64,000 nt of DNA from the NCBI GenBank assembly GCA_019636875.1, contig JAHBWR010000003.1, positions 1-64,000 of the forward strand, in the 5' to 3' direction. Numbering within the stretch: position 1 is the stretch's first letter; each line of letters starts with the position of its first letter. Under the pieces are notes generated by a model. It was not told the origin of the DNA and searched no databases. It saw only the letters and a program-made list of their open reading frames with translations. A program made the translations under genes and the position numbers. The DNA comes from Nitrospira sp. GTDB lineage: Bacteria > Nitrospirota > Nitrospiria > Nitrospirales > Nitrospiraceae. This document shows positions 1,312-15,767 of the stretch, piece by piece.

Positions 1312-1383
1312 TTCTTAACATTCTGATAACACAAACTTGATGTTGATGTGGCTCCTTCGTTTTTTTAGAGGAGTAGACTTCAC
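1312..1383 (+). promoter_or_regulatory. conserved upstream element, copy 1
   Basis: This 72-base stretch aligns without gaps to 4463-4534. The first 41 bases agree at 34 positions, the middle 16 diverge, and the last 15 (1369-1383) agree at 13. The 5' block carries a direct repeat, TTAACA at 1315 and ATAACA at 1326, with an 11-base period, which is the geometry of tandem winged-helix response-regulator sites. The 3' block contains TAGACT, which could act as a -10 box. The start codon of the glycosyltransferase at 1431 lies 47 bases downstream. Function is inferred from conservation and placement only. Confidence 0.6.
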
Positions 1384-1430
1384 ATTCTGAAAGGCACCTC
1401 GACAACTCTCACGGACTATGGAGTAACGGT

Positions 1431-2327
1431 ATGAGCCTGTCGATTCTCATCCTGACGCTGAACGAAGAACGCAATCTGGCCGAATGCCTCAAGTCGGTCG
1501 AAGAGTCCGATGACATCGTCGTCTTCGACTCATTCAGCAATGATCAAACGGTCAAGATCGCAGAGGAGATGGGCGCCCGAGTGGTACAGCGACGGTTCGA
1601 CAATTACGCGGCCCAAAGGAATGCCGGCTTGAACGAGGTGCCCTATAAGCATCCGTGGGTACTCATGGTCGATGCCGACGAACGAGTCACACCTGAGCTC
1701 TGGGCGGAAATGCGATCAGCGACAGAGACAGCCGATCAGACGGTCAGTCTGTTTCATATGAGGAGAAAAGACTATTGGTTTGGACGGTGGCTCCGCCGCA
1801 GTAGCGGATATCCGACGTGGTTCGGCAGGTTGGTCCGCGTGGGGCATGTGACCGTCCAGCGAGAGATCAACGAACAGTACGTGGCACACGGGGAAGCAGG
1901 ATTTTTGAATGAACATCTGCTGCATTACCCGTTCAACAAAGGGGTTACCTATTGGCTTGAACGCCATAACCGCTACTCCACGATGGAAGCGGCCGGTTTA
2001 GTAATGGAGCAACGGGAAAGGATTGCCATTCAGGAAATGTGGTCGGGCAATCCCATTGTTCGTCGAAAAGCTATGAAACAAGTCGCGTACAGACTTCCTG
2101 GTCGCCCGTTCTGGGTATTTATCTATCTCTATATGGTACGGGGAGGCTGTCTGGACGGTCGAGCAGGATTGCGGTATTGCATGCTCCGGACGATGTACGA
2201 ATACATGATCGATCTCAAGGTGAAGGAACGATTGGAGGAACCGGATGGCCAAAGAGCTGGCAAGAAAAATAGTCTTCGTCAATCGCTACTTCCATCCCGA
2301 TCATTCGGCGACGAGCCAGCTCCTTAG
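1431..2327 (+). CDS. family 2 glycosyltransferase (WaaE/KdtX-like)
   Basis: A 298-residue GT-A type glycosyltransferase. It opens with SILILTLNEERNL, has the DSFSNDQT segment typical of the WaaE/KdtX-like subgroup, and the metal-binding DADER motif near residue 83. It would transfer a sugar from a nucleotide-sugar donor at the inner face of the inner membrane during assembly of the exopolysaccharide repeat unit. The start at 1431 is preceded by GGAGTAA at a suitable distance. The 3' end overlaps the next glycosyltransferase by 83 bases in another frame. It is the first gene behind upstream element copy 1. Confidence 0.85.
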   Translation: MSLSILILTLNEERNLAECLKSVEESDDIVVFDSFSNDQTVKIAEEMGARVVQRRFDNYAAQRNAGLNEVPYKHPWVLMVDADERVTPELWAEMRSATETADQTVSLFHMRRKDYWFGRWLRRSSGYPTWFGRLVRVGHVTVQREINEQYVAHGEAGFLNEHLLHYPFNKGVTYWLERHNRYSTMEAAGLVMEQRERIAIQEMWSGNPIVRRKAMKQVAYRLPGRPFWVFIYLYMVRGGCLDGRAGLRYCMLRTMYEYMIDLKVKERLEEPDGQRAGKKNSLRQSLLPSRSFGDEPAP

Positions 2328-3543
2328 TGACCTGGCTTTCGACCTGGCCTCGCGCGGTCAGACGATTCATGTGATCACTGGGTGTCAGTTATACGGGAAT
2401 GCCCAAGCCTCGCTCCCAGCAAAAGAATCCATCCGAGGTGTGCAGGTGCATCGGGTGCGCACGTCTCGGTTCGGGCGAGCCAGCTTGTGGGGTCGAGTGA
2501 TCGATTACCTGACATTCTACTTGGCGGCGACCTGGCGCTTGCTGTGCCTGATCCGACCAGGGGACATTGTGGTCGCAAAGACCGATCCGCCGATGATGTC
2601 GGTCCCTGCGGCATGGGTAGTGAAGCTCAAGGGAGGTGTGTTAGTCAACTGGGTCCAGGATCTGTTTCCGGAAGTGGCAACGTCTCTCGATGTGTACGGC
2701 GTCCGATTTGCGGCACCCATGCTCAAGCGATTGCGCAACCAGTCGTTACGGCAGGGGCGATCGAACGTTGTCTTAGGCGAAATCATGGCGGAGCGGTTGC
2801 GGGGAGAAGGCGTCCCTTCCGATCAAATCACGATCATCCAAAATTGGGCTGATGGTGATGCTATTCAGCCGATCGACAAGCGCGATAACCCGCTCATCCG
2901 GGAGTGGGGCCTCGAAGGAAAATTCGTTCTGGGCTACTCGGGGAACATGGGTCACGTGCACGAGTTCAAGACGATGATCGACGCCGCGGAGAAGCTGAAT
3001 GATGTGAAGGAGATTGCCTTTGTGTTTGTCGGCGATGGGATTGCGAGGCAATGGCTCATCGCGGAGGCGGCTCGACGTAGGTTAACGAATACTCAGTTTT
3101 TCCCGTATCAGTCGGCGGATCGTCTGCGCTGGAGCCTGTCGCTCCCTGACGTGCATTTTGTGTCGTTACGACCGACGTTGGAAGGGTTGATCGTGCCGAG
3201 TAAATTTTACGGGATCGCCGCAGCTGGACGGCCTATCATTCACATCGGTGATCCAGACGGCGAGATCGCGCGCGTTCTTGAACGAGAACGATGTGGATGG
3301 AGTTTCTGTATCGGTGAAGTCGATGCCTTGACGAACTGCATACTCCGCCTGTCTCAGGAGGGGTGCGAGGTTACCGACGCAGGATCGTGTGCGCGTCGAG
3401 CCTTTGACAGGAAATATTCCCGTCTCCACGCCCTCGATAGTTGGCGTTTGTTGTTGGAATCGGCTGCACCGGAGGCTTCTCCCGTCAAGGCGGCGGTGCC
3501 GGAATCGCTGGAGCACCCTCTCGCTGTGGGACGAAAAGGATGA
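2245..3543 (+). CDS. family 4 glycosyltransferase (WbuB/WcaI-like)
   Basis: A 432-residue GT-B glycosyltransferase. The N-terminal half has the FVNRYFHPDHSATSQLL start seen in WbuB/WcaI-type enzymes; the C-terminal half has the GYSGNMGHVHEF strand and an E-x7-E-like site (SLRPTLEGLIVPSKFYGIAAAGRP) that binds the donor nucleotide sugar. The expected role is adding a sugar to the lipid-linked exopolysaccharide intermediate. The chosen start gives an 83-base overlap with the upstream gene. The start is uncertain, but residues KIVFVNRYFHPDH just after it are needed for the fold. Its stop overlaps the next start as ATGA. Confidence 0.85.
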   Translation: MAKELARKIVFVNRYFHPDHSATSQLLSDLAFDLASRGQTIHVITGCQLYGNAQASLPAKESIRGVQVHRVRTSRFGRASLWGRVIDYLTFYLAATWRLLCLIRPGDIVVAKTDPPMMSVPAAWVVKLKGGVLVNWVQDLFPEVATSLDVYGVRFAAPMLKRLRNQSLRQGRSNVVLGEIMAERLRGEGVPSDQITIIQNWADGDAIQPIDKRDNPLIREWGLEGKFVLGYSGNMGHVHEFKTMIDAAEKLNDVKEIAFVFVGDGIARQWLIAEAARRRLTNTQFFPYQSADRLRWSLSLPDVHFVSLRPTLEGLIVPSKFYGIAAAGRPIIHIGDPDGEIARVLERERCGWSFCIGEVDALTNCILRLSQEGCEVTDAGSCARRAFDRKYSRLHALDSWRLLLESAAPEASPVKAAVPESLEHPLAVGRKG

Positions 3544-4442
3544 TACGGCCACGAAGGTCCAGATGTCTTGTCTTGGGGCTGGCGATGGTCGGCGTCCTTG
3601 GTGTGTCCCTGCCCTCTGATTCTGTCACCACGAGCGCGGTTGCCGCTCAAAGGCCCTTCGTCGTATTCGATGCGACACTCTATAAGAATAAACCTTCTTT
3701 TAGCGGTTACCCCATACGCCCGATCAAGCTGCTCTATGAGTCGCGTTTGTTTCCGAAGGGCCAGCCGCACGACGCCTTGCCGCCTGAAGGAACCGTACGA
3801 TCTGTTGCAAAAGAGTTACGTGGGGCGCCGGAGGGGGTGGTGATTGACATTGAGCGTTGGCCGCTGAAGGGAGATCCGAAGATCGTCAAGGAGAATGTCG
3901 GCAAGATCTTGGCGATCCTCTCGTGGATCAAGGCCGAAGCACCCGACCTCCAGCTGGGGGCCTATGGAACGGTTCCATTGCCGGACTATTGGCGAGCGAT
4001 TCGAGGCCCTGGGAACAAAGACTTTCAGGCGTGGCAACAGGACAACGACCGATTGGATGAGATGGCGGCACGGCTAAATGCGTTGTACCCGACCCTGTAC
4101 ACTTACTATCCGGATCGTCAGGGCTGGGTTCAGTATGCCGTGGCTCAACTCACTGAGGCTAAGCGGAAGGCCAACGGAAAACCGGTCTATGCCTTTCTGT
4201 GGCCGCAATACCACGATTCCAATAAGAAGCTGCGGTTACAACCCGTCGAACCCGAGTATTGGGAGCTACAGTTGAATACCGTCTCTCAACATGCCGATGG
4301 AGTTGTGATCTGGGGTGGATGGGGGGAGAAGGGGCCGGAATCGTGGAACGAAGAAGCGCCCTGGTGGGAAATCACAAAACGGTTCTTAGGCCGAATGGCT
4401 TCCAATCAGCCAGGCCGCCCGCGCGACCTTACCGTCCAGTAA
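3540..4442 (+). CDS. secreted TIM-barrel, glycoside-hydrolase-like protein
   Basis: A 300-residue exported protein. The start at 3540 overlaps the previous stop (ATGA) and is followed directly by a basic-hydrophobic signal peptide ending near AVAA. The mature part looks like a small TIM barrel: an early strand FVVFDATLYKN, then VVIDIERWPL, whose D-x-E pair resembles the catalytic acid motif of GH56-like hyaluronidases, then LQLGAYGTVPLP and late strands PVYAFLWPQYHD and GVVIWGGWGEK. It may cut or trim the polysaccharide made by this locus. The family assignment is tentative: motif resemblance only. It ends the unit that starts at 1431. Confidence 0.55.
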   Translation: MIRPRRSRCLVLGLAMVGVLGVSLPSDSVTTSAVAAQRPFVVFDATLYKNKPSFSGYPIRPIKLLYESRLFPKGQPHDALPPEGTVRSVAKELRGAPEGVVIDIERWPLKGDPKIVKENVGKILAILSWIKAEAPDLQLGAYGTVPLPDYWRAIRGPGNKDFQAWQQDNDRLDEMAARLNALYPTLYTYYPDRQGWVQYAVAQLTEAKRKANGKPVYAFLWPQYHDSNKKLRLQPVEPEYWELQLNTVSQHADGVVIWGGWGEKGPESWNEEAPWWEITKRFLGRMASNQPGRPRDLTVQ

Positions 4443-4462
4443 CTCTTCGTCAACGTCATCCC

Positions 4463-4534
4463 TTTTTAACAATCAGTTAACACAATCTTGATTCTGATGT
4501 GGCCACCCGTGGATCGACCAGGAATAGACTGCAC
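4463..4534 (+). promoter_or_regulatory. conserved upstream element, copy 2
   Basis: Second copy of the element at 1312-1383, with identical spacing between the conserved blocks. The direct repeat is perfect here: TTAACA at 4466 and again at 4477, an 11-base period. The TAGACT box is at 4525-4530. If that box is a -10 element, transcription would begin near 4537 and give a leader of about 20 bases before the exosortase start at 4558. The stretch between the blocks is not conserved, as expected for spacer DNA. A sigma-54 reading fails because no GC lies at the right distance from TGTGGC. Confidence 0.6.
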
Positions 4535-4557: not shown

Positions 4558-6180
4558 ATGTCAACTCAACCTACAACCCTCGATGCATTGTCGCCTTCTT
4601 CTGGCCTGTCTTTTGATCCTTCCTCGTTGAACCGGAGGAGTCCATTCCTGTGGGTGTTTCTCGCCGTCATCGCGACCATTCTCGGCTACCTCTACGCGGA
4701 TAGCCTGCGGTTTCTCGGAGAAGCGTGGCTGGAGGATAACAACAGTCATGGTCCTTTTATTCCACTGATCTCGCTGTACATGGTGTGGATGCGATGGGGA
4801 CGGGTTCAATCGATCGAACCCTATGGCCTCTGGTGGGGGGTTCCGATCGTTGCCGTTGGGCTGTTCGTCTATGCCGTTGGACAGTTTGCTGCGATGTACG
4901 CGGTCGTGCATCTCTCGTTCTGGCTGGTGATCCTTGGAATGCTGACTTGCACCATCGGATTATCGGGTATTTGGCAGCTAGCCTTTCCCCTCTGCTATCT
5001 GCTCGCCGCCATCCCACCACCCACATTTCTGCAGTACGAACTCTCAAGCCGTCTCCAGCTCTGGTCCTCGGCCTTGGGTATCGGATTTCTCCAATCGATC
5101 GGTGTCATGGCCTTCCGAGACGGCAATGTGATCGATTTGGGGAAGATTCAACTGCAAGTGGTGGAGGCTTGCAGCGGGCTACGGTACCTGTTTCCCCTCA
5201 CCACGCTGACGATCCTGGGAGCCTACCTGTACCGTGAATCGTTCTGGAAGCGCATAGTGCTGGTTCTCTCGAGCATCCCGATTTCGATCCTGCTCAATGG
5301 CTTTCGAATCGGCGCGATCGGTGTGTTGGTCGAATATTACGGGTCCGGCGCAGCCGAAGGGTTTACCCACTTCTTCGAAGGGTGGATCATGTTTGTTGCG
5401 AGCCTGGGGCTGCTCTGCCTGGAGATGTGGCTTCTCGCACGAATAGGGAGCGGGGCTGAGGCGCGTCCATTCGTTGAACTGATCGGCCTGCCCGGTACGG
5501 GCCAGCCGGTCATACCGTTAGATAGAAGTCGCCGTACCCTGATCCCGCTCTCAAGCGGTCTGGCCCTTCTGATCTTGGCGGTACCTGTCGCTCCGTTGCT
5601 GGTGCAGGAGGAGTTTTCTCCCCCGTCGAGACAATCGCTCTCGGAATTTCCATTGCGACTCCAGGCATGGGAAGGAGTCGCTTCCCCGATGGAGCGACAA
5701 TATCTCGACGCGTTGCAGTTGGACGATTACGTCTTGGCCGATTACACCACGCCGGATCAACCTCCGGTGAATATCTATATGGCCTATTACCTATCTCCTA
5801 AGAAAGGTCGGTCTTCACACTCGCCCAAGCAATGTATCCCCGGCGGCGGCTGGGAAATTACCTCGTTCGAACCAATACAGATAGATCGGGTGTCCGGCGG
5901 AGAGCCGGGTCAGGAAATCAATCGAGTGGTGATCCAAAAAAGCGGGCATAAGCAGATTGTCTACTACTGGTTCAAACAGCGAGATCGTTGGATGACCAGT
6001 GAGTACATGGTGAAGTTTTTCCTCTTCTGGGATTCGTTGACAAGGCAACGGGCGGATGGCGCGCTCGTACGCTTAAGTTCAGCTGTTCATGCAGGAGAGA
6101 GCGAAGCGGTCGTTGACGAACGGTTGCAAACTCTGGCTGGTCTCGTCACCCCGTTATTGAGTCGGTATGTTCCTGACTGA
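4558..6180 (+). CDS. exosortase with fused EpsI domain
   Basis: A 540-residue inner-membrane protein in which an eight-helix exosortase domain (about residues 30-300) is fused to a C-terminal EpsI domain (about 320-540). The transpeptidase-like triad is visible: Cys205 in EACSGLRYL, Arg250 in GFRIG and His271 in HFFEGW. The EpsI part has the hallmark HSPKQCIPGGGW starting at His421. Exosortases cut C-terminal sorting signals (PEP-CTERM and relatives) of exported proteins; the fusion resembles the XrtD class, but the subtype is uncertain. ATG codons lie at 4543 and 4558; I prefer 4558 because of the likely promoter. No protein in this window shows an obvious PEP-CTERM tail. Confidence 0.88.
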   Translation: MSTQPTTLDALSPSSGLSFDPSSLNRRSPFLWVFLAVIATILGYLYADSLRFLGEAWLEDNNSHGPFIPLISLYMVWMRWGRVQSIEPYGLWWGVPIVAVGLFVYAVGQFAAMYAVVHLSFWLVILGMLTCTIGLSGIWQLAFPLCYLLAAIPPPTFLQYELSSRLQLWSSALGIGFLQSIGVMAFRDGNVIDLGKIQLQVVEACSGLRYLFPLTTLTILGAYLYRESFWKRIVLVLSSIPISILLNGFRIGAIGVLVEYYGSGAAEGFTHFFEGWIMFVASLGLLCLEMWLLARIGSGAEARPFVELIGLPGTGQPVIPLDRSRRTLIPLSSGLALLILAVPVAPLLVQEEFSPPSRQSLSEFPLRLQAWEGVASPMERQYLDALQLDDYVLADYTTPDQPPVNIYMAYYLSPKKGRSSHSPKQCIPGGGWEITSFEPIQIDRVSGGEPGQEINRVVIQKSGHKQIVYYWFKQRDRWMTSEYMVKFFLFWDSLTRQRADGALVRLSSAVHAGESEAVVDERLQTLAGLVTPLLSRYVPD

Positions 6181-6191
6181 GGGAAGGTGAA

Positions 6192-7820
6192 GTGGGTTCC
6201 GTCTTATTTTTCAGTTTTATGGGATCCTTGATCATTTGCATGGCATTGATCCCGACGCTGGCCGCATCGGCCGGACGCCTGGCGTTCATCGATGTACCGC
6301 GAGACCGGCATGCCCACCGTGAGCCGATTGCCAAAGTCGGCGGTATCGCGTTTGCAATCGCGACCTTCGTCGCAGTTCTCGTCTGGGCGCCGAAGGATCA
6401 GCTGATTCTCTCGAGCCTGCTCGGTGGGGCCGTCATTTTGATGTTCGGGATCTGGGATGACCGAGTCGGCCTTAGCTACCGAGTGAAGTTCGCCGGGCAG
6501 ATCCTAGCCGCGGTCATTGTCGTGGTCTTCGCCGGCATCCGCGTGTCATCACTTCCCTTCTTCGACGATCTGCTCATTCCTGCCTGGCTCTCGGTTCCTC
6601 TTACAGTGATGGTGATTGTCGGCGTCACGAATGCCGTTAATCTGTCGGATGGACTCGACGGCTTGGCTGGAGGTTTGGCGCTCATCAGCTTCGCCGGCAT
6701 CGCGTATTTAGCTTACCAAGTGAATGAAACCTTGCTGGTGTTACTCACGGTGTCCGTTCTTGGGGGCCTACTTGGGTTTCTCAGATTTAACACCCATCCG
6801 GCCAGGATTTTCATGGGTGATGCCGGCAGTCAATTCCTCGGCCATTATCTGGCAGTTGCCGCCATCCTTCTGACCGACCAGACAAGGACGGCCTATAGTC
6901 CGCTCCTGGCGCTCTTTCTTTGGGGAGTGCCGTTGTTGGATACGGTCGGCGTCATGATCCACCGTTATGTGCAAGGGCGATCGCCGTTCGTCGGTGATCG
7001 GAGTCATGTCCATTACAGATTGTTGGCGTGCGGACTGACGCATGGGCAGGCGGTAACGCTTATTTACGTGATCCATGCCGTTATGGTGGGCTGTGCCTAT
7101 CTCCTTCGTTGGCAACCGGACGGGCTGTTGGTTGCTCTGTATGTGATATTTGCAGGTGGGCTGTTCGGTCTCTTTGTTCGTATGCCGAAGGTCACGGTTT
7201 GGGCTGAGGGCGACTCGTCATCGATTGCTCAACCTCGAGTAGAACGCGCTTCCCATCCATGGTCGGTCGGTGAAGTGTCGCTCACAATCCTGTATCTGGC
7301 GATTCCGATGTACTTGATTGGGGCTACCTTTGTCCCGCGTGAGATTCCATCTGATGCCGGCTTTATTGCGGGAGTCTTGACGGTCGCTGTACTTGCCTCG
7401 TTTTTTCTCCCCTCCGCCGCGCCTTGGGCCGTACGCGCAGCCTTGTATATCGGCAGCACCTCGGTGATGTACTACAGCGACGTCTTCCCGCGCGAGGTGA
7501 TGGCCAAGGTTCTCACTCCGGTCAATGTGGGTGTCGCCATGTTGGCGGTGCTCGTAGTCCTTGCAGTCCGTTTGGTCGGCGAAGAGCGATTTCAAACGAC
7601 TCCATTGGATTACCTCATCATCCTGTTTGCGGGGGTCCTGCCGTTTCTGCCGGGGATGACGGTCGGGGATGTTCCGATGGGACTTCTGACGGCGAAGCTA
7701 ATCGTCCTGTTCTTTGCCTTTGAATTGTTGCTGAACATACGGGTGTCTGCCGTGACGCGTCTCGGCATCGTCGCGTTAGTGATGCTGGCCGGGGTCATGC
7801 TGCGCGCTTGGTGGTTATGA
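6192..7820 (+). CDS. MraY/WecA-family polyprenyl-phosphate sugar-phosphate transferase with long C-terminal extension
   Basis: A 542-residue polytopic membrane protein starting with GTG behind GGGAAGG. The first 330 residues match undecaprenyl-phosphate GlcNAc-1-phosphate transferases: IWDDRVG, NLSDGLDGLAGG, FMGDAGSQFLGH and the late HYRLLACGLTHGQAV loop. It would start polysaccharide assembly by moving a sugar phosphate from a UDP-sugar onto the lipid carrier. WecA is usually about 350 residues; here roughly 190 extra residues add about six hydrophobic segments of unknown role. It follows the exosortase by 11 bases and overlaps the open frame of the next gene. Confidence 0.85.
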   Translation: MGSVLFFSFMGSLIICMALIPTLAASAGRLAFIDVPRDRHAHREPIAKVGGIAFAIATFVAVLVWAPKDQLILSSLLGGAVILMFGIWDDRVGLSYRVKFAGQILAAVIVVVFAGIRVSSLPFFDDLLIPAWLSVPLTVMVIVGVTNAVNLSDGLDGLAGGLALISFAGIAYLAYQVNETLLVLLTVSVLGGLLGFLRFNTHPARIFMGDAGSQFLGHYLAVAAILLTDQTRTAYSPLLALFLWGVPLLDTVGVMIHRYVQGRSPFVGDRSHVHYRLLACGLTHGQAVTLIYVIHAVMVGCAYLLRWQPDGLLVALYVIFAGGLFGLFVRMPKVTVWAEGDSSSIAQPRVERASHPWSVGEVSLTILYLAIPMYLIGATFVPREIPSDAGFIAGVLTVAVLASFFLPSAAPWAVRAALYIGSTSVMYYSDVFPREVMAKVLTPVNVGVAMLAVLVVLAVRLVGEERFQTTPLDYLIILFAGVLPFLPGMTVGDVPMGLLTAKLIVLFFAFELLLNIRVSAVTRLGIVALVMLAGVMLRAWWL

Positions 7821-7837
7821 GAGGGAAACAGAGGAGA

Positions 7838-10231
7838 ATGGACATGAAGCCATATGTCGCGTGTGGACTTGTTCTTGTCATTGCGGTGGCGCTCAGCGCC
7901 TGTGGCGGGGCTGAAGAACGTAAGGCCAAATATCAGCTGAAGGCTCAAGAATACTTCCAGGAAGGGAATTTCCCCAAAGCCAGAATCGCCCTCAGGAATG
8001 TGCTCCAGATCGATCCGAAGGATGCCGACGCCTATTTTCTCTATGCCCAAGTCGAAGAAAAAGAGCAGAACTGGCGCAATGCGTTTGCTGCCTATCAGCA
8101 GGTCGTCGAACTCAATCCACATCATGATCGCGCCCAGATCAAATTGGCGAAGTACTATCTCGAGGTTCGGGCATTGGACCAAGCTAAAGAGATTACGGAT
8201 CGGTTACTGACGAAACAACCGGATCATGTTCCGGCGAAGGCTATCAAAATTTCGATCACGGCCCTCTCCGACCGTCCCAAAGAGGCGATCACGCAGGCCG
8301 AGAAACTCATTGCCGCCGCACCGACGGAGGTGGATGCGGCGTTGCTGATCACGGCGCTCTATACCTCCGTCCAGAGGACAGGAGAAGCGGTCCCGTTTCT
8401 GCGTCGAGCCTTGGAAATCCATCCGGATAACCTGGAATTGCTGGATGTGTTGGCGACCACGCTGATCAAACAGGGGCAGAAGGCAGAAGCTGAGGCGACG
8501 CTTGAGAAAATCGTCAAACTGGAGCCGACGGTGTTCAATCACCGGTTGCGTCAAGTCGCCTTCTATGACGGCGAACAGCAATATGAAAAGGCCGAAGCCA
8601 TTATACGAAGCGCGATTCGAGCGGAACCGGACAATGAAAAACGCTGGTTGTCATTGGCGGAATATCTGGGGAAGCGTCGCGGTGTGGAACAGGGAGAAGG
8701 GGTGTTGCAACAAGCCCGGAAGGAGTTGCCACACAACGGCAAGGTCTGGCTGGCGTTGGGCAGTCTGTACGAATCGACCAGGCGAGTTGAGAAGGCGCGA
8801 GAACTTTACCATGAGATGGACAAGGCATTCTCGGGAAAACCTGAAGCCTATGAGGCGCAGGTGAAGGTTGCGAGTTTGGATTGGGCTGAAGGCAAGGTTG
8901 AGGAAGCCGCACGGACGATCGAAACCGTGCTGAAAGAAAACTCGCGCTCGAGCGATGCCCTCTTATTAAGAGGGAAGATTGCGCTTCAGCGGGGTAATGG
9001 GAAGGACGCGATCCTCGATTTTCGCTCTGTCCTCAAAGATCAACCGGAAATGGCCGAAGGGCATGTTCTCCTCGCCAGAGCGCATCTCCTGGCCGGGGAA
9101 CCGGCACTGGCCCGTGAAAGTCTGGATAAAGCACTTGCGTTCAAGCCTGCCCTGACGGAGGCGCACACCTTGTTGGCGGGGCTTGATGCGGCAGCCGGTC
9201 AATTTAAGGATGCAAAGCAGAGACTGGATCCGCTACTCGCGCGAGAACCAGGCAATGTGGCGCTCCTTGGCATGCTCTTTCAGTTGCAACTGCAGGAAAA
9301 AGACTGGAAGAAGAGTCAGGATACGCTCCAGCGGTTGCGCCGAGCCGGAGCCGATGAGGGCGCCGCAAGCTTAGCGGAAGGGCATGTCGCCTTGGCGCAA
9401 CAACAGTGGGATATCGCTGAAGCGGCGTACGCCAAGGCCGCTCAGAAACGGCCACAGGCGGCGGAGCCGCTCATGGCGCTCGTGCAGCTGGATGTGCGAC
9501 GCGGTCGCATGGTGCAAGCCCAGCAACGTCTGGAAACTCTGCTGGCGAAGTCACCGGAGCATCCCTATGCCGCGGGTTTTCTCGGTGAGCTCCTCCTCAC
9601 AAAGGGCGAGCCGGCTGTGGCCATCTCTCAGTTAGAAACCGCAGTTCGTGTTAACCCGAAATGGACGACTCCCTATGTGCATCTGGCTCGACTTCATCAG
9701 GCCCAGAAGCGTACGGAAGACGGTGATGCCGTGCTTCGCAAGGGGTTGGAGGTCAGTCCGGAGAATGAACAGCTGCGCCTTTTGTTGGCCCTGAGTCAGT
9801 CCGCACAGGGACGCCATGATGAGGCCATCGGACACTACGAGATGGTGTTGAAGCGAGCTCCTGCGTCGCTCCTGGCGGCGAACAACCTTGCGGCTGCATT
9901 GGTCGATCACAAGGGAGATCCTCAGAGTCTTGAACGAGCCTTGGCGTTGAGTCGTCTATTTGAAGCAGAGAAAGCCAACCCGTATCTGCTCGATACACTA
10001 GGCTGGGCGCATCATAAGCTCGGCCATGGGGCCGATGCCGTCCGGGTCCTGCAGCAGGCGACGGCCATGGCGCCAGATCATCCAATCCTCAACTATCACC
10101 TGGGTGCGGCTTATGTGAAGGTTGGGAGAGGAACGGACGCGGTCACCCACCTCAAGAAAGCCCTGGCTTCCGGGACGCCGTTCGACGGCTTGGATGATGC
10201 CAAAACATTACTTGGAGAAGTAGCAGGATGA
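7838..10231 (+). CDS. PrsT-like TPR-repeat lipoprotein of the exosortase system
   Basis: A 797-residue lipoprotein. The start at 7838 is preceded by AGAGGAG; the signal peptide ends in the lipobox LSAC followed by GG. The rest is a nearly continuous array of tetratricopeptide repeats with typical (A/L)-x2-Y/L-x-A and xxP spacing. It matches by layout and length the TPR lipoproteins known from PEP-CTERM/EPS loci (PrsT). The likely role is a periplasmic scaffold linking synthesis with export of the polysaccharide, anchored in a membrane by the lipidated Cys. Its stop overlaps the next start (10228-10231). Confidence 0.82.
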   Translation: MDMKPYVACGLVLVIAVALSACGGAEERKAKYQLKAQEYFQEGNFPKARIALRNVLQIDPKDADAYFLYAQVEEKEQNWRNAFAAYQQVVELNPHHDRAQIKLAKYYLEVRALDQAKEITDRLLTKQPDHVPAKAIKISITALSDRPKEAITQAEKLIAAAPTEVDAALLITALYTSVQRTGEAVPFLRRALEIHPDNLELLDVLATTLIKQGQKAEAEATLEKIVKLEPTVFNHRLRQVAFYDGEQQYEKAEAIIRSAIRAEPDNEKRWLSLAEYLGKRRGVEQGEGVLQQARKELPHNGKVWLALGSLYESTRRVEKARELYHEMDKAFSGKPEAYEAQVKVASLDWAEGKVEEAARTIETVLKENSRSSDALLLRGKIALQRGNGKDAILDFRSVLKDQPEMAEGHVLLARAHLLAGEPALARESLDKALAFKPALTEAHTLLAGLDAAAGQFKDAKQRLDPLLAREPGNVALLGMLFQLQLQEKDWKKSQDTLQRLRRAGADEGAASLAEGHVALAQQQWDIAEAAYAKAAQKRPQAAEPLMALVQLDVRRGRMVQAQQRLETLLAKSPEHPYAAGFLGELLLTKGEPAVAISQLETAVRVNPKWTTPYVHLARLHQAQKRTEDGDAVLRKGLEVSPENEQLRLLLALSQSAQGRHDEAIGHYEMVLKRAPASLLAANNLAAALVDHKGDPQSLERALALSRLFEAEKANPYLLDTLGWAHHKLGHGADAVRVLQQATAMAPDHPILNYHLGAAYVKVGRGTDAVTHLKKALASGTPFDGLDDAKTLLGEVAG

Positions 10232-10848
10232 TCATGATGCGATCTATGGGCAAATATCAGGTCAGTCGTGTGGCCGTCATGATCGTGTGTGTTGGTCTCT
10301 CGATGGTCGACGGAAGCCGGTCGCTCCTGGCCGAGCCGGTGGGCGACGAACCAACAAACGTCGAACCGATTTATCTATTGGGTCCAGAAGATATGCTCAA
10401 GGTGGCTGTCTGGAAGGATGAACAGTTGACGCAGGAGCTCGTCGTCAGGCCGGACGGGATGATTTCGTTTCCTCTTATCGGAGAGGTTCAGGCATCTGGT
10501 CGGACGGTCGAAGATGTTCGCAGCGAGATTGCGCAGCGTCTGACTAAATTCCTCCCGAATCCCAACGTGACCGTGACGGTGCTCAAGGTCCTCAGCTATC
10601 GCATCTATGTGTTGGGACGGGTGAATAAGCCGGGTGAATATCAAGCTGGACACCATACCGATGTGTTGCAGGCATTGAGTATGGCCGGTGGGTTGACGGC
10701 CTATGCGTCAGAGAACAACATCAAGATCATTCGCCGAAACGGAACCGACGAACTCGTGTTTCCCTTCCGCTACGGTGATGCGAGGAAGGGCCGGGACTTA
10801 CATCAGAACATACTCCTCCAGCGTGGCGATGTGGTGATGGTGCCTTGA
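10228..10848 (+). CDS. Wza-like polysaccharide export protein
   Basis: A 206-residue exported protein with a polysaccharide-export (Poly_export) domain, GPEDMLKVAVWKDEQL to NPNVTVTVL, followed by one SLBB domain (YRIYVLGRVNKPGEY to VMVP). Proteins of this size are the periplasmic/outer-membrane gate of exopolysaccharide secretion. The predicted signal peptide has no clear lipobox, unlike Wza itself. ATG codons at 10228, 10234 and 10237 compete; the first overlaps the upstream stop. It lies between the TPR lipoprotein and the outer-membrane barrel, the usual order in exosortase-linked export loci. Confidence 0.86.
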   Translation: MIMMRSMGKYQVSRVAVMIVCVGLSMVDGSRSLLAEPVGDEPTNVEPIYLLGPEDMLKVAVWKDEQLTQELVVRPDGMISFPLIGEVQASGRTVEDVRSEIAQRLTKFLPNPNVTVTVLKVLSYRIYVLGRVNKPGEYQAGHHTDVLQALSMAGGLTAYASENNIKIIRRNGTDELVFPFRYGDARKGRDLHQNILLQRGDVVMVP

Positions 10849-10852
10849 CGGA

Positions 10853-12091
10853 ATGGAACAACCACAGGCTGATTGTCGCCCAATGTCCTGGTGGAAGCCA
10901 TGCAGCCCGTGCCTTTCGTGCTGGTTGATGGGTATGTTGATGTTGACCATGGGTAGTTGGAGAGGGGAGGTGTCAGCGGCAGAATGGTCGGCGGTCCCTT
11001 CATTGAGCGTCAAGGGTATCTACAACAGCAATCTGCTGTTGCGTGATGGCAACAACGAAGTGGTGGGGAATTGGGTGACTCCGGCTCTCAGATTCAAAGG
11101 CGCGACCGAATCATTATCTGTAGAAGGAGAAAGTCGAGCCGACTTTGTCCATTACTTTGGGGATCAAGACAGAACCTTCACGAATTACTACTTCCCGCTG
11201 CGGACGTCGTATCGTACAGATCGGCATACCTTTGGTTTTGAAGGCGGCTTTACCAACGACAACACGCTGCGTGGAGAGCTGGAGACGACCGGTCTCGTCT
11301 TGTCTTTTACCCAACGGAACATGTGGACCGCCAATCCAAGTTGGAAGGTCGGTATCACCGAACGGCTCTCCTGGACCAGTGTGTATAACTTTGTCGATGC
11401 GAGTTATCAAGATGGACAGCGTCTTGGGCTTTTCGACTATCGGGTCCACGGAGGAACAGCCGGGCCGACCTATAACCTGACTGAATTGGACCAGGTTCAG
11501 GTGACCGGTGAATACACGTTGGTCAGCGTTCCATCCGCCGGACTGGAATCGACCTATTATGGTGCACAGGGGACTTGGACTCATGACTTTGGAGATCGCT
11601 TGATCGGATCTGTCGGAGGGGGCGGACGATTGGTCAACTCGGACTTGGACATCCCCGGATTTGGATCCGTGGGCAGCCAGGAAATTGTCTGGGTGTACAA
11701 TGCCTCGCTGAGCAAGCAGTATGAGCAAACGACGGTTCGGGTCGATGGGAGTCGACGAATCAATCCCAGCGGGTTTGGGCGTTTGCTCCAGACGGATCGA
11801 GTGGGAGGGTCGCTCATTCATCACGTCAACGAGACGTTGACGGCATCGCTCTCCGGGGGACTCTATTTTGTCTCAGGAATCGCCACGAGTTCGTCGAGTC
11901 GTGCCTTTCCAAGCACGAGGTTCTTGTCAGTCAGCCCTAGCCTCTCCTGGAACTTCGCCGAGTCATGGACTGTTGACGCCACGTATACGTTTGCAGAACG
12001 ATCTGTCGAAGACCTCAACCAACGCAATGGGGCGCACTCGATGTTTCTGGTGCTCCGCTATGAAGGACTCAAATGGGCAATCTCCCGCTAG
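10853..12091 (+). CDS. outer-membrane beta-barrel protein of the exosortase/EPS locus
   Basis: A 412-residue exported protein with alternating hydrophobic-polar strands and many Tyr/Phe/Trp at strand ends, finishing in an aromatic-rich last strand: a beta-barrel pattern. It resembles the PEP-CTERM-system-associated barrel family (TIGR03016-like), by position and the early segment VKGIYNSNLLL. It probably forms or helps the outer-membrane pore for the polysaccharide. The N-terminus is long and cysteine-rich (several Cys in the first 25 residues), so the true start could be one of the later Met codons just before MLTMGSW. It overlaps the next gene by 19 bases. Confidence 0.7.
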   Translation: MEQPQADCRPMSWWKPCSPCLSCWLMGMLMLTMGSWRGEVSAAEWSAVPSLSVKGIYNSNLLLRDGNNEVVGNWVTPALRFKGATESLSVEGESRADFVHYFGDQDRTFTNYYFPLRTSYRTDRHTFGFEGGFTNDNTLRGELETTGLVLSFTQRNMWTANPSWKVGITERLSWTSVYNFVDASYQDGQRLGLFDYRVHGGTAGPTYNLTELDQVQVTGEYTLVSVPSAGLESTYYGAQGTWTHDFGDRLIGSVGGGGRLVNSDLDIPGFGSVGSQEIVWVYNASLSKQYEQTTVRVDGSRRINPSGFGRLLQTDRVGGSLIHHVNETLTASLSGGLYFVSGIATSSSSRAFPSTRFLSVSPSLSWNFAESWTVDATYTFAERSVEDLNQRNGAHSMFLVLRYEGLKWAISR

Positions 12092-13863
12092 GCAATGATC
12101 AGAGAGCGCAAGGGCGTGCGGCGACGAAACCACGCACGCCATCCATGTCGGATTATTTGGCGGTGCTGCGCCGCCGTCGACGATTGATTCTTATGGTTGG
12201 TGCGTCGATTCTAGCGGCAAGCGTCGCACTGGCGTTTCTCTGGCCGCCGGTGTATCGCTCGACTGCAACGATTTTGATCGAGGAGCAAGAAATTCCTCCC
12301 GATCTTGTGCGGTCAGCTATCGCGACTTATGTCGATCAGCGTATTGAGACGATCAAGCAACAGGTGCTCAGCCGATCCACACTCTGGCGCATGGTCGAAC
12401 AGTACAACCTATACCAGGGACTTCGCACTCGAAGCTCGACGGAGGAGGTGCTCGAGCGATTTACAGACGATATTGAGATCGAGGTCATGAATGTCAAAGT
12501 AATCGATAAGCGATCGCAGAATCCGACTCAGGCGACCATCGCCTTTACCCTGGCCTACGATGGTGAGGCGCCGGAGGTGGCCCAAAAGGTCACCAACGAA
12601 CTGACCAGCCTCTTTCTCAACGAAAATTTAAAGACCCGTGAACGGCATGCCCAAGAAACAACGCTATTTCTGAAACGGGAGTCGGAAAATTTATCCCGAC
12701 ACATACAAGAGTTGGAAGAGAAGCTCGCTAAAGTTAAGCAGCGAGCGGACGGAGCATTACCGGAGCTTGTCCAGCTCAATATGGCTTTGCTGAATCAGGC
12801 TCAACGGGAACTGATCGATGCCGACCGGGATATCAGGAGTCTGCGGGAACGTAAGACCTACCTCGAAGGCGAACTTGCGACATTAAAACCTCATACGCCG
12901 ATCATCAGCGCGAGTGGGGAACGATTGTTGGACGTTGATGAACGGCTGAAGGCATTGCGGGCTCAGTCGGCCAGTCTGGCAGCCTATGTGAAGCCGGACC
13001 ATCCGGATATGATCAAATTGAAACAGGAATTGTCGTCGTTAGAAAAGGAGGTCGGTGAGACGGACGAACGCGACGAATTATCCAAGCGCCTCATGGCGGA
13101 ACGCGCAACCTTAGCTGAACTCCGGGAACGTATGAACGATGCCCATCCTGATGTGATTCAGGCTCAGGAAGTTGTGGCCTCGCTTGAGAAGGAGCTGGAA
13201 GTTGCGAGCACTCGCGATGCCGTCCCAACGCCGATCAAACCGGAAAATCCTGCCTACATCAACATTCAGTCGCAACTGAGTTCCACGACTGCCTCATTGG
13301 AGGCTATGGAAGCTGCGCGCAGCGAGTTGAAACGCCGCCTAGCTGAATATGCCAAACGCCTTGAATCGACGCCCACCATCGAGCCTGAGTATCTAGACTT
13401 GATTCGGGATCGGGAAAACTCCGTGCGCAAACACCAAGAAATCACGTCTCGTATGATGGAAGCACAAGTGTCGGCGGAATTGGAGGTTCAGCGAAAGGGA
13501 GAGCGGTTCTCCTTGATTAATCCCCCGGAACTACCTGAAAAGCCTAGTCGTCCAAATCGTCCGGCGATCTTGTTGCTCGGAGCCTTGTTTGCGATCTTTG
13601 GTGGAGTCGGTAGCGGCGTTGCTGCAGACAATTTCGACGGCAGGGTCCATACAAGGGAGCAGCTCGCCCGCACGATGCGAAGCATTCCGATCGTCGTCGT
13701 TCCGTATTTGCCTTCAGGGAATGAAGTGGCAGCCATGGCCCGTCGGCGTGTGGCTGTCAGCCTCTCCGCTCTGGGTGCGGTCGCTGTTGTTGCGATCGTT
13801 CTGCATCTGACATGGAGGCCATTGGACGTCCTCTGGTACACAATCCTTAGAAAACTCGGCTGA
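12073..13863 (+). CDS. Wzz/GumC-like chain-length determinant
   Basis: A 596-residue polysaccharide co-polymerase. It has a first membrane helix at about residues 40-60 after SMSDYLAVLRRRRRLIL, a long periplasmic coiled-coil region rich in Lys/Glu/Leu (about 180-460), and the classic proline-rich ending PPELPEKPSRPNRP before a second membrane helix near residue 500. A third hydrophobic segment follows near the C-terminus. It controls polymer length together with the tyrosine kinase encoded next. There is no fused kinase domain. The start overlaps the previous gene by 19 bases. Confidence 0.85.
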   Translation: MGNLPLGNDQRAQGRAATKPRTPSMSDYLAVLRRRRRLILMVGASILAASVALAFLWPPVYRSTATILIEEQEIPPDLVRSAIATYVDQRIETIKQQVLSRSTLWRMVEQYNLYQGLRTRSSTEEVLERFTDDIEIEVMNVKVIDKRSQNPTQATIAFTLAYDGEAPEVAQKVTNELTSLFLNENLKTRERHAQETTLFLKRESENLSRHIQELEEKLAKVKQRADGALPELVQLNMALLNQAQRELIDADRDIRSLRERKTYLEGELATLKPHTPIISASGERLLDVDERLKALRAQSASLAAYVKPDHPDMIKLKQELSSLEKEVGETDERDELSKRLMAERATLAELRERMNDAHPDVIQAQEVVASLEKELEVASTRDAVPTPIKPENPAYINIQSQLSSTTASLEAMEAARSELKRRLAEYAKRLESTPTIEPEYLDLIRDRENSVRKHQEITSRMMEAQVSAELEVQRKGERFSLINPPELPEKPSRPNRPAILLLGALFAIFGGVGSGVAADNFDGRVHTREQLARTMRSIPIVVVPYLPSGNEVAAMARRRVAVSLSALGAVAVVAIVLHLTWRPLDVLWYTILRKLG

Positions 13864-13892
13864 CACCACCATAGGAAAGGGACAGGAATCTG

Positions 13893-14726
13893 ATGGACTA
13901 TCTCCAGCACGCGCAGGAACGGTTTCGACAACAAACCGAATCGGCAGGGGGCGATCCGCGCCGGTTAGATGGGGATTCAAGACGCTCCGACGCTCCAATC
14001 GTGTATCGCGCAACTAAGACTATTGCGCTTCCTGACCACGTGATGCGCGAGCAGCGATTGATCACCGGATTCGATGAAGGTCCGTTTGTCGATGCGTATC
14101 GGGTGTTGCGCGCGCAAGTTCTCCAGCAGTATCGTCAAAAGGGATGGAACGTCATCGGGGTGTCCAGTCCCACCGCCCAGGAGGGTAAGACACTGACGGC
14201 GGTCAACCTCTCGCTCTCCCTGGCTATGGATTTGGCTCACACGGTACTATTGGTTGATGCCGATCTGCATCGGCCGACGATCCATCGTTTCTTTGGGATA
14301 GGGCCTGTTCCAGGGCTGACTGAGTATCTGTTCGACAACGCCCCACTCGCGCAACTGCTCATTCATCCAGGGATCGGTCGCTGTGTGTTTCTGTCGGGGG
14401 GGCGATCGATTAGAAATTCGGCGGAAGCGCTTGCGTCGCCAAGAATGACCAGCCTGGTCCACGAACTGAAGCATCGCTATCCTGCGCGGCTGGTCGTGTT
14501 CGACCTCCCGCCACTCTTGTCTCGTGCCGACGCGGTGGGATTTGTTTCGAATCTTGATGCGATGGTGTTGGTCCTGGAGGAGGGGCGCACCGTCTCAGAG
14601 GAAGTCGAACAAGCGATGGATCTCGTGAAAGGCACCGTTCCGATTCTGGGAGGAGTGCTGAATAAAAGCGGTCGTGGCATGTTGACCCTACGGCAAGGGC
14701 GGAAGCTGGTGAACGCTGTTCGCTGA
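13893..14726 (+). CDS. CpsD/CapB-family tyrosine autokinase
   Basis: A 277-residue cytoplasmic P-loop kinase of the BY-kinase type. It has a deviant Walker A SPTAQEGKT (Lys99), Walker A' VLLVDADLHRP and Walker B LVVFDLPPLL. It pairs with the separate Wzz-like protein upstream, as in loci where the activating cytoplasmic partner is encoded apart. I see no C-terminal tyrosine cluster; the tail is short and basic (LRQGRKLVNAVR), so regulation may not use the usual Tyr-tail phosphorylation. The start at 13893 lies 29 bases after the previous stop, behind AAAGGGACAGG. Confidence 0.85.
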   Translation: MDYLQHAQERFRQQTESAGGDPRRLDGDSRRSDAPIVYRATKTIALPDHVMREQRLITGFDEGPFVDAYRVLRAQVLQQYRQKGWNVIGVSSPTAQEGKTLTAVNLSLSLAMDLAHTVLLVDADLHRPTIHRFFGIGPVPGLTEYLFDNAPLAQLLIHPGIGRCVFLSGGRSIRNSAEALASPRMTSLVHELKHRYPARLVVFDLPPLLSRADAVGFVSNLDAMVLVLEEGRTVSEEVEQAMDLVKGTVPILGGVLNKSGRGMLTLRQGRKLVNAVR

Positions 14727-14735
14727 GTCACAACG

Positions 14736-15767
14736 ATGTATGAAACGTACTATCAACTGAAGACCAAGCCGTTCACGTTGTTGCCAGATCCCGACTTTCT
14801 CTATTTGGGAGCCAAGCATAAAATGGCTTTGAGTCTGTTGGAGTATGGGCTGGCCAATAGCGCCTCCTTCATCATCCTGACAGGGAGCCCGGGCACAGGA
14901 AAAACCACACTGCTCAATCGATTGTTGGATCAGTCCGGCCATCCATGGGTCATCGGTGTCTTGTCGAATATGCATGGCGGGATGGGCGAATTGATGCCGT
15001 GGATTGCAGCCGCGTTCGACGTACCGACGAATGGAAGAAACAGGGTCGAGCTCTTTCAAGAGTTTGCACGATTTCTTGAGCAGGAATACAGCACCGGGCG
15101 ACGGGTACTCTTGGTTCTCGATGAGGCACAAAATGCCGGGAGCGACGTATTAGAAGAACTTCGACTGTTGTCGAACCTGAACGATGGACGGCGCCGATCA
15201 CTGCAGATTTTGCTCTCCGGCCAACCAGGATTACAGGACCTCCTGAAAGGGCCAGGAATGGTGCAGTTCGCGCAGCGGATCGGGGTGGAATATGTGCTGG
15301 AAAATCTCGCAGAAGACGAAACGGTGGCTTACATCGATCATCGTCTTCAGGTAGCAGGTCGCCATGTCCGTCTCTTTACTGAGCTCGCTGGTCGAGTCGT
15401 GTTTCGCGTCACCGGTGGAATACCGCGACTCATCAATCAATTATGCGACCATGCCCTGGTCTATGGGTATGCGGAACAGGTGGGTACTATCACCGGTCAT
15501 ATTGTTCGAGCAGCCGCGACGGCGCGAGCCAAACAGGGGGTCTTCCCATTCGCGGTATCCCCGGACGACATTAACTTGTCTGAACAGGAGCTCGCTGCTG
15601 AACGAAACGAGATCCATGCGTTAACAAAAAGATCGATTCACGCTGAAGTGCCGGCCTGTCAATCCATCGAGGTGAGCGATGCGGAGTCTACTGGAACTAT
15701 AAAAGGGCAGGATACACGATCTGTAACTTTCTGGCGTGGGCGCGAAGCGTTCATAAAAGGTAGTTAA
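14736..15767 (+). CDS. ExeA-like AAA ATPase of the exosortase system
   Basis: A 343-residue ATPase opening with YYQLKTKPFTLLPDPDFLYLG, typical of ExeA/GspA-type and exosortase-associated ATPases. Walker A is GSPGTGKTT (Lys56) and Walker B LLVLDEAQN (Asp129). The family links ATP hydrolysis to envelope assembly; in exosortase loci its exact role is unknown. The core ends near residue 270; a polar tail of about 70 residues follows, longer than usual. It starts 9 bases after the kinase stop and is the last clear gene of the polysaccharide locus. Confidence 0.82.
   Translation: MYETYYQLKTKPFTLLPDPDFLYLGAKHKMALSLLEYGLANSASFIILTGSPGTGKTTLLNRLLDQSGHPWVIGVLSNMHGGMGELMPWIAAAFDVPTNGRNRVELFQEFARFLEQEYSTGRRVLLVLDEAQNAGSDVLEELRLLSNLNDGRRRSLQILLSGQPGLQDLLKGPGMVQFAQRIGVEYVLENLAEDETVAYIDHRLQVAGRHVRLFTELAGRVVFRVTGGIPRLINQLCDHALVYGYAEQVGTITGHIVRAAATARAKQGVFPFAVSPDDINLSEQELAAERNEIHALTKRSIHAEVPACQSIEVSDAESTGTIKGQDTRSVTFWRGREAFIKGS

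Follow-up and report, generated by a model that had tools for sequence, protein, structure and literature searches.

The exosortase locus of this Nitrospira genome carries two similar stretches of upstream DNA, one ahead of glycosyltransferase genes and the other ahead of the exosortase gene, and the question is what kind of control they exert and which protein would bind them. The window was a stretch of 64,000 nucleotides from contig C123 of genome G000 (3.55 Mb, 84% complete). The explanation that we consider probable, judging by sequence comparison, is that the elements are Pho-box-type operators for an activator of the PhoB family at the promoters of exopolysaccharide (EPS) and XrtD-exosortase genes, through which several promoters of the cluster would be activated together.

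Two upstream elements and the genes behind them

Positions 1312–1352 and 4463–4503 were aligned without gaps and were identical at 34 of 41 positions, followed by a middle part with 2 identities in 16 and a last block with 13 in 15 (49/72 in total). The best 41-mer match in 2000 trials with dinucleotide-shuffled intergenic regions was only 25 (mean 20.9), and the 34/41 match is thus far beyond chance. The coordinates and match counts of the initial annotation were exact; its description of near-identical 72-bp elements held for the two conserved blocks but not for the spacer. Both copies had a diverged 21-nt gap after the 41-nt block and then TAGACT, the hexamer that had been annotated. Half-sites (TTAACA...TTAACA...TTGA) recurred every 11 bp within the element, and the 11-base direct repeat proved real across 46 non-redundant copies, in which self-match over the first 27 bases peaked at period 11 (0.515, versus 0.11–0.35 at other periods). 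The element therefore has the tandem direct repeats of 11-nt units that mark a Pho box.

The operator array of promoter 1 (1312–1352, forward strand) contains half-sites at 1315 (TTAACA), 1326 (ATAACA), 1337 (TTGATG) and 1348 (GTGGC), and was assigned from the alignment and from its retention in relatives, upstream of the orthologue of the glycosyltransferase gene. Its putative −10 hexamer TAGACT (1374–1379, forward strand) lies 21 nt past the block and has no −35. The array of promoter 2 (4463–4503, forward strand), with half-sites at 4466 (TTAACA), 4477 (TTAACA), 4488 (TTGATT) and 4499 (GTGGC), was assigned from the alignment and from a zero-mismatch fit to a two-half-site pattern, and its putative −10 hexamer is TAGACT at 4525–4530 (forward strand). 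A sigma-70 −35 hexamer at 16–18 nt was rejected, with at most 3/6 matches in 64 of 65 copies. An inverted repeat, TTAAC-N5-GTTAA, was also rejected: the glycosyltransferase copies break it (GATAA, CCTAA) but keep the direct repeat.

Promoter 1 is followed by unit 1 (1431–4442, forward strand), three genes for a family 2 glycosyltransferase (1431–2327), a WcaI-like glycosyltransferase (2245–3543) and a weak GH56-like protein of uncertain start (3441–4442), all on the forward strand. Unit 2 opens with a VPLPA-CTERM exosortase (4558–6180, forward strand), which scored 513.6 bits against TIGR04152, above the cut-off of 400 for XrtD membership. The remaining EPS/exosortase genes (6192–15767, forward strand), assumed to form one transcript, encode a WecA/MraY-like transferase, a PrsT-like TPR protein, an export protein, a chain-length determinant and more EPS functions. 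Gene content thus bears out the assignment of one copy to the glycosyltransferases and the other to the exosortase operon. Genome G000 has three XrtD-type exosortase genes, on C123, C180 and C186; the element occurs only at the C123 gene of the window, and no copy was found near those on C180 and C186.

Distribution of the element

With a profile built on sequence alone, copies were found in 31 of 79 Nitrospira genomes, with 1–4 per EPS/XrtD-exosortase cluster and mostly 2–4 close together. A profile of the 46 non-redundant copies found the element also in three sister genera of the same family and no credible copy elsewhere among 296 genomes of the phylum; three partial matches outside the family (E 0.003–0.005) were treated as chance. 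Comparison of the matching gaps in relatives, proposed with the initial annotation, thus showed the element to be conserved, and the exosortase loci of named Nitrospira MAGs carried one or both copies at corresponding places. For the exosortase copy in nine species, identity was 89% in the 41-nt block, 92% at TASACT and 53% in the spacer, and the flanks had diverged (27% upstream, 34% downstream). A TASACT-like hexamer was present in all 46 non-redundant copies, after a gap of 21 nt in 29 and 22 nt in 17, and its uniformity arises partly by selection since it was picked as the best match within gaps of 18–25 nt. These 11-bp half-sites, the fixed geometry and the conservation support, at the level of sequence, the earlier proposal of a regulator binding in tandem at one type of promoter.

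The genes downstream of the copies were almost always the first of an EPS or exosortase unit. The full element model was confined to EPS/exosortase clusters, while the half-site was common to phosphate-transport promoters too. At E ≤ 10, G000 had three copies in all, the two in the window and a third outside it (C25:9106–9172), so that the genome-wide search suggested earlier did recover a further, EPS-type copy; co-regulation is supported, but the count of two units is too low because G000 has three such promoters. The third copy is close to the end of its contig and is divergently oriented to a gene for a GDSL lipoprotein, which is followed by one for a PhoB-like response regulator. The GDSL-type lipoprotein (904 aa, C25:6309–9023, locus L053) separates the third element from the PhoB-like gene, and the pair was also seen in G003 and G007. 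In G003, the same arrangement runs on to a MurJ-like flippase, a Wzy-like ligase and glycosyltransferases, and then to counterparts of both window copies.

It had been expected that the motif would find the rest of the regulon, including the sorted substrates. Further copies were found before other exopolysaccharide genes, but the substrates were not: the 49 VPLPA/PEP-CTERM-like genes of the loci collected all lacked the element upstream (best score −12, versus at least 46 for true copies), and a sorted-substrate regulon was rejected. A degenerate copy, CGTAACAATCATTTAACACGCTCTTGAT, followed by TAGAGT, was seen upstream of one substrate-like gene (L057:18490, G060), the sole such case seen; this gene is outside the 49, having been missed by the search expression.

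Half-sites in common with pst promoters

Promoters of the pst operon (porin-pstS-...) from 30 genomes were aligned independently of the EPS element. In 27 of the 30, four half-sites (TTAACA, GTAACA, GTAGCA and TTAACG) lay 11 bp apart ahead of a −10 of TATACC. Published Pho boxes consist of two 11-nt direct repeat units (PMC4415409), in cyanobacteria of CTTAACCT repeats with 3-bp linkers (PMC1906773), and the Nitrospira pst boxes agree with both descriptions. The pst half-sites start 48, 37, 26 and 15 nt before the −10 and all four are strong, whereas EPS copies with a 21-nt gap have strong half-sites at 59 and 48 and weak ones at 37 and 26, ahead of TASACT. The half-site, the 11-bp period and the register to the −10 are therefore common to the two kinds of promoter, with the EPS array displaced one 11-bp unit upstream; a 22-nt gap puts a copy one base out of register. 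Compared with the Pho boxes of PhoB/SphR-type regulators in E. coli and cyanobacteria, the EPS element likewise has head-to-tail 11-bp units, a TTAAC-type half-site and a −10 without a −35, but its proximal half-sites are weak, its targets are EPS/exosortase genes, and about 21 nt, rather than about 10, separate the end of its array from the −10. As the block ends 21–22 nt before the −10, the element was named Pho-box-type rather than a classical Pho box.

A half-site matrix derived from the pst promoters alone, applied as three tandem sites to about 1.7 million positions, gave 70 hits scoring 15 or more, and a first-order Markov control gave none. When the spacing was set to 9, 10, 11, 12 or 13 bp, the tandem hits numbered 0, 0, 70, 0 and 2, respectively. 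Most belonged to EPS elements or preceded pst or PhoB-like genes, and the EPS elements were picked out in register; the loci scanned had been chosen for EPS and pst genes, and the scan thus gives no genome-wide background. In G000, the pattern TTAACR-N4-GKTAACA with at most one mismatch occurred at 7 places, comprising 2 in the pst operon (C74:2198 and C74:3640), the 3 EPS copies and 2 others, and the only zero-mismatch sites were C74:2198, the pst promoter, and the exosortase promoter. A reversed-pattern control gave 9 places versus 7, and so it is the position of the matches, and not their number, that is evidence.

Several further arrays were noted. The site at C74:3640 (L275) is a second tandem half-site array of G000, in the gap before pstS and downstream of the porin gene. 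In two genomes (G000:C150:12081, L281; and L202:10389), tandem TTAAC-type half-sites were seen close to a gene for an exonuclease III-like protein, a possible further member of the regulon.

Candidate regulator and competing explanations

The PhoB-like protein encoded next to the third copy has the receiver and Trans_reg_C domains of PhoB (TIGR02154). Among NCBIfam models it was nearest to PhoB, at 244.9 bits, below the equivalog cut-off of 296.2, as was the pst-linked paralogue in G062 (242.1 bits); among proteins of solved structure, RegX3 is closest to it in sequence. PhoB-like paralogues (at least 64% identity) were found in nearly all Nitrospira and were more numerous in genomes with the element (1.97 versus 1.30). 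In G062 one lies directly behind pstC-pstA-pstB-phoU, and the second paralogue of G000 is followed by a gene for a PnpS/PhoR-type kinase (417.6 bits against a cut-off of 400). A PhoB-like gene lay within 60 kb of the element in 16 of 30 genomes, compared with 1.9 expected, the related genomes not being independent. Several genomes have pst and PhoB-like genes on the contig of the EPS cluster, within tens of kilobases of it. The recognition-helix stretch TRTVDVHxRR was identical in the pst-linked and EPS-linked copies.

Other features of these loci were recorded. In most of L266–L273 (G093, G033, G063, G060, G030, G026, G065 and G080), pst gene sets were on the EPS-cluster contig. Some pst copies were accompanied by a gene for a second, divergent response regulator (33–39% identity); where examined in L266–L273, such a gene (33–34% identity to the first regulator) has TTAACA-type tandem sites in common with the pst genes. 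An array of tandem half-sites, TTTAACGCATTGGTAATGCCCCTGTAACA, lies some 75 nt ahead of the PhoB-like gene match in G060 (L201:11222), which suggests that this gene is autoregulated. The ArsR-type gene at L053:4878–5234, close to the third copy, was set aside as the regulator because ArsR-family proteins bind inverted repeats.

Several points were counted against the PhoB reading: compared with pst, the array is shifted upstream by one 11-bp unit, both of its proximal half-sites are weak, 14 of 30 genomes have no PhoB-like gene within 60 kb of the element, and the PhoB-like scores fall below the equivalog cut-off. The operators could instead be those of another OmpR-family regulator with no tie to phosphate, at sites that resemble Pho boxes, with the PhoB-like gene linked only through the common EPS/pst neighborhood. 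The genomes lacking a linked gene and the altered operator position fit this view, as does the divergent response regulator linked to some pst copies, and 10–11 bp direct repeats are common at OmpR-family sites. Against it, the half-site letters and register equal those of pst, a matrix derived from pst finds the elements, and the recognition helix is common to the pst-linked paralogue, so that we regard a different regulator as unlikely.

A pair of similar stretches only 3 kb from each other could come from duplication, and both a duplicated or mobile piece of DNA and a structured RNA leader were considered, but an origin of either kind, with no promoter operator, is very improbable: the block and −10 are conserved while the spacer and flanks diverge, G000 has no copy elsewhere at E ≤ 10 except the third, EPS-type one, the consensus fold has no base pairs, and the element has no Rfam match. 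The one control system proposed for exosortase/PEP-CTERM is the proteobacterial sigma-54/PrsK-PrsR system, whose stimulus was called obscure and whose element, the exosortase-associated motif in print, precedes substrate genes (PMC1569441). It resembles the Nitrospira element as a common upstream element tied to an exosortase system, and differs in sigma factor, in regulator family and in its targets, the Nitrospira element preceding EPS/exosortase units and none of the 49 substrate-like genes. The locus has genes for both an exosortase and a PrsT-like protein, and PrsR-family models matched in 79 of 79 Nitrospira genomes; only in 21 was the match above cut-off, G000 was not one of them, and the −24 GG/−12 GC signature (GG-N10-GC) was present in just 3 of 65 copies. 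Sigma-54 promoters with PrsR enhancer sites are thus already contradicted by the sequence and scarcely credible here.

For the preferred reading, Pho-box-type operators, the candidate binder is a response regulator of the PhoB family (OmpR/PhoB winged-helix type), be it the phosphate regulator or the paralogue encoded at the edge of the cluster. It would bind head-to-tail on the array of tandem 11-bp half-sites (TTAACA, TTAACA, and weaker TTGA and TGGC) ahead of the TASACT −10, and would act as an activator rather than a repressor by recruiting sigma-70 polymerase to promoters that have a −10 only. Several units of the cluster would be co-ordinated at once through their common operators, and the likely signal is phosphate limitation. 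More tentatively, a duplicated PhoB may have moved beside the exosortase/EPS cluster and, by way of operators one half-site upstream, surface matrix and protein sorting may have become a dedicated branch of the phosphate-starvation response.

A phosphate regulator acting on exopolysaccharide genes has a parallel in rhizobia, where PhoB was reported to do so on different genes and in a different phylum (PMC3131613, PMC4415409). In a literature word search, control of PEP-CTERM by PhoB or phosphate was not found in the portions of PMC3333781 and PMC5532660 considered. The work supplies a Pho-box profile for the genus Nitrospira. No exosortase is known to be involved in the rhizobial control. Nitrospira flocs and biofilms matter in wastewater treatment. 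Because the switches resemble the sites of a phosphate-response regulator, the making of slime and the anchoring of proteins may be tied to phosphate supply, and an XrtD system in Nitrospira now has a concrete candidate regulator and a candidate signal, phosphate, both open to testing.
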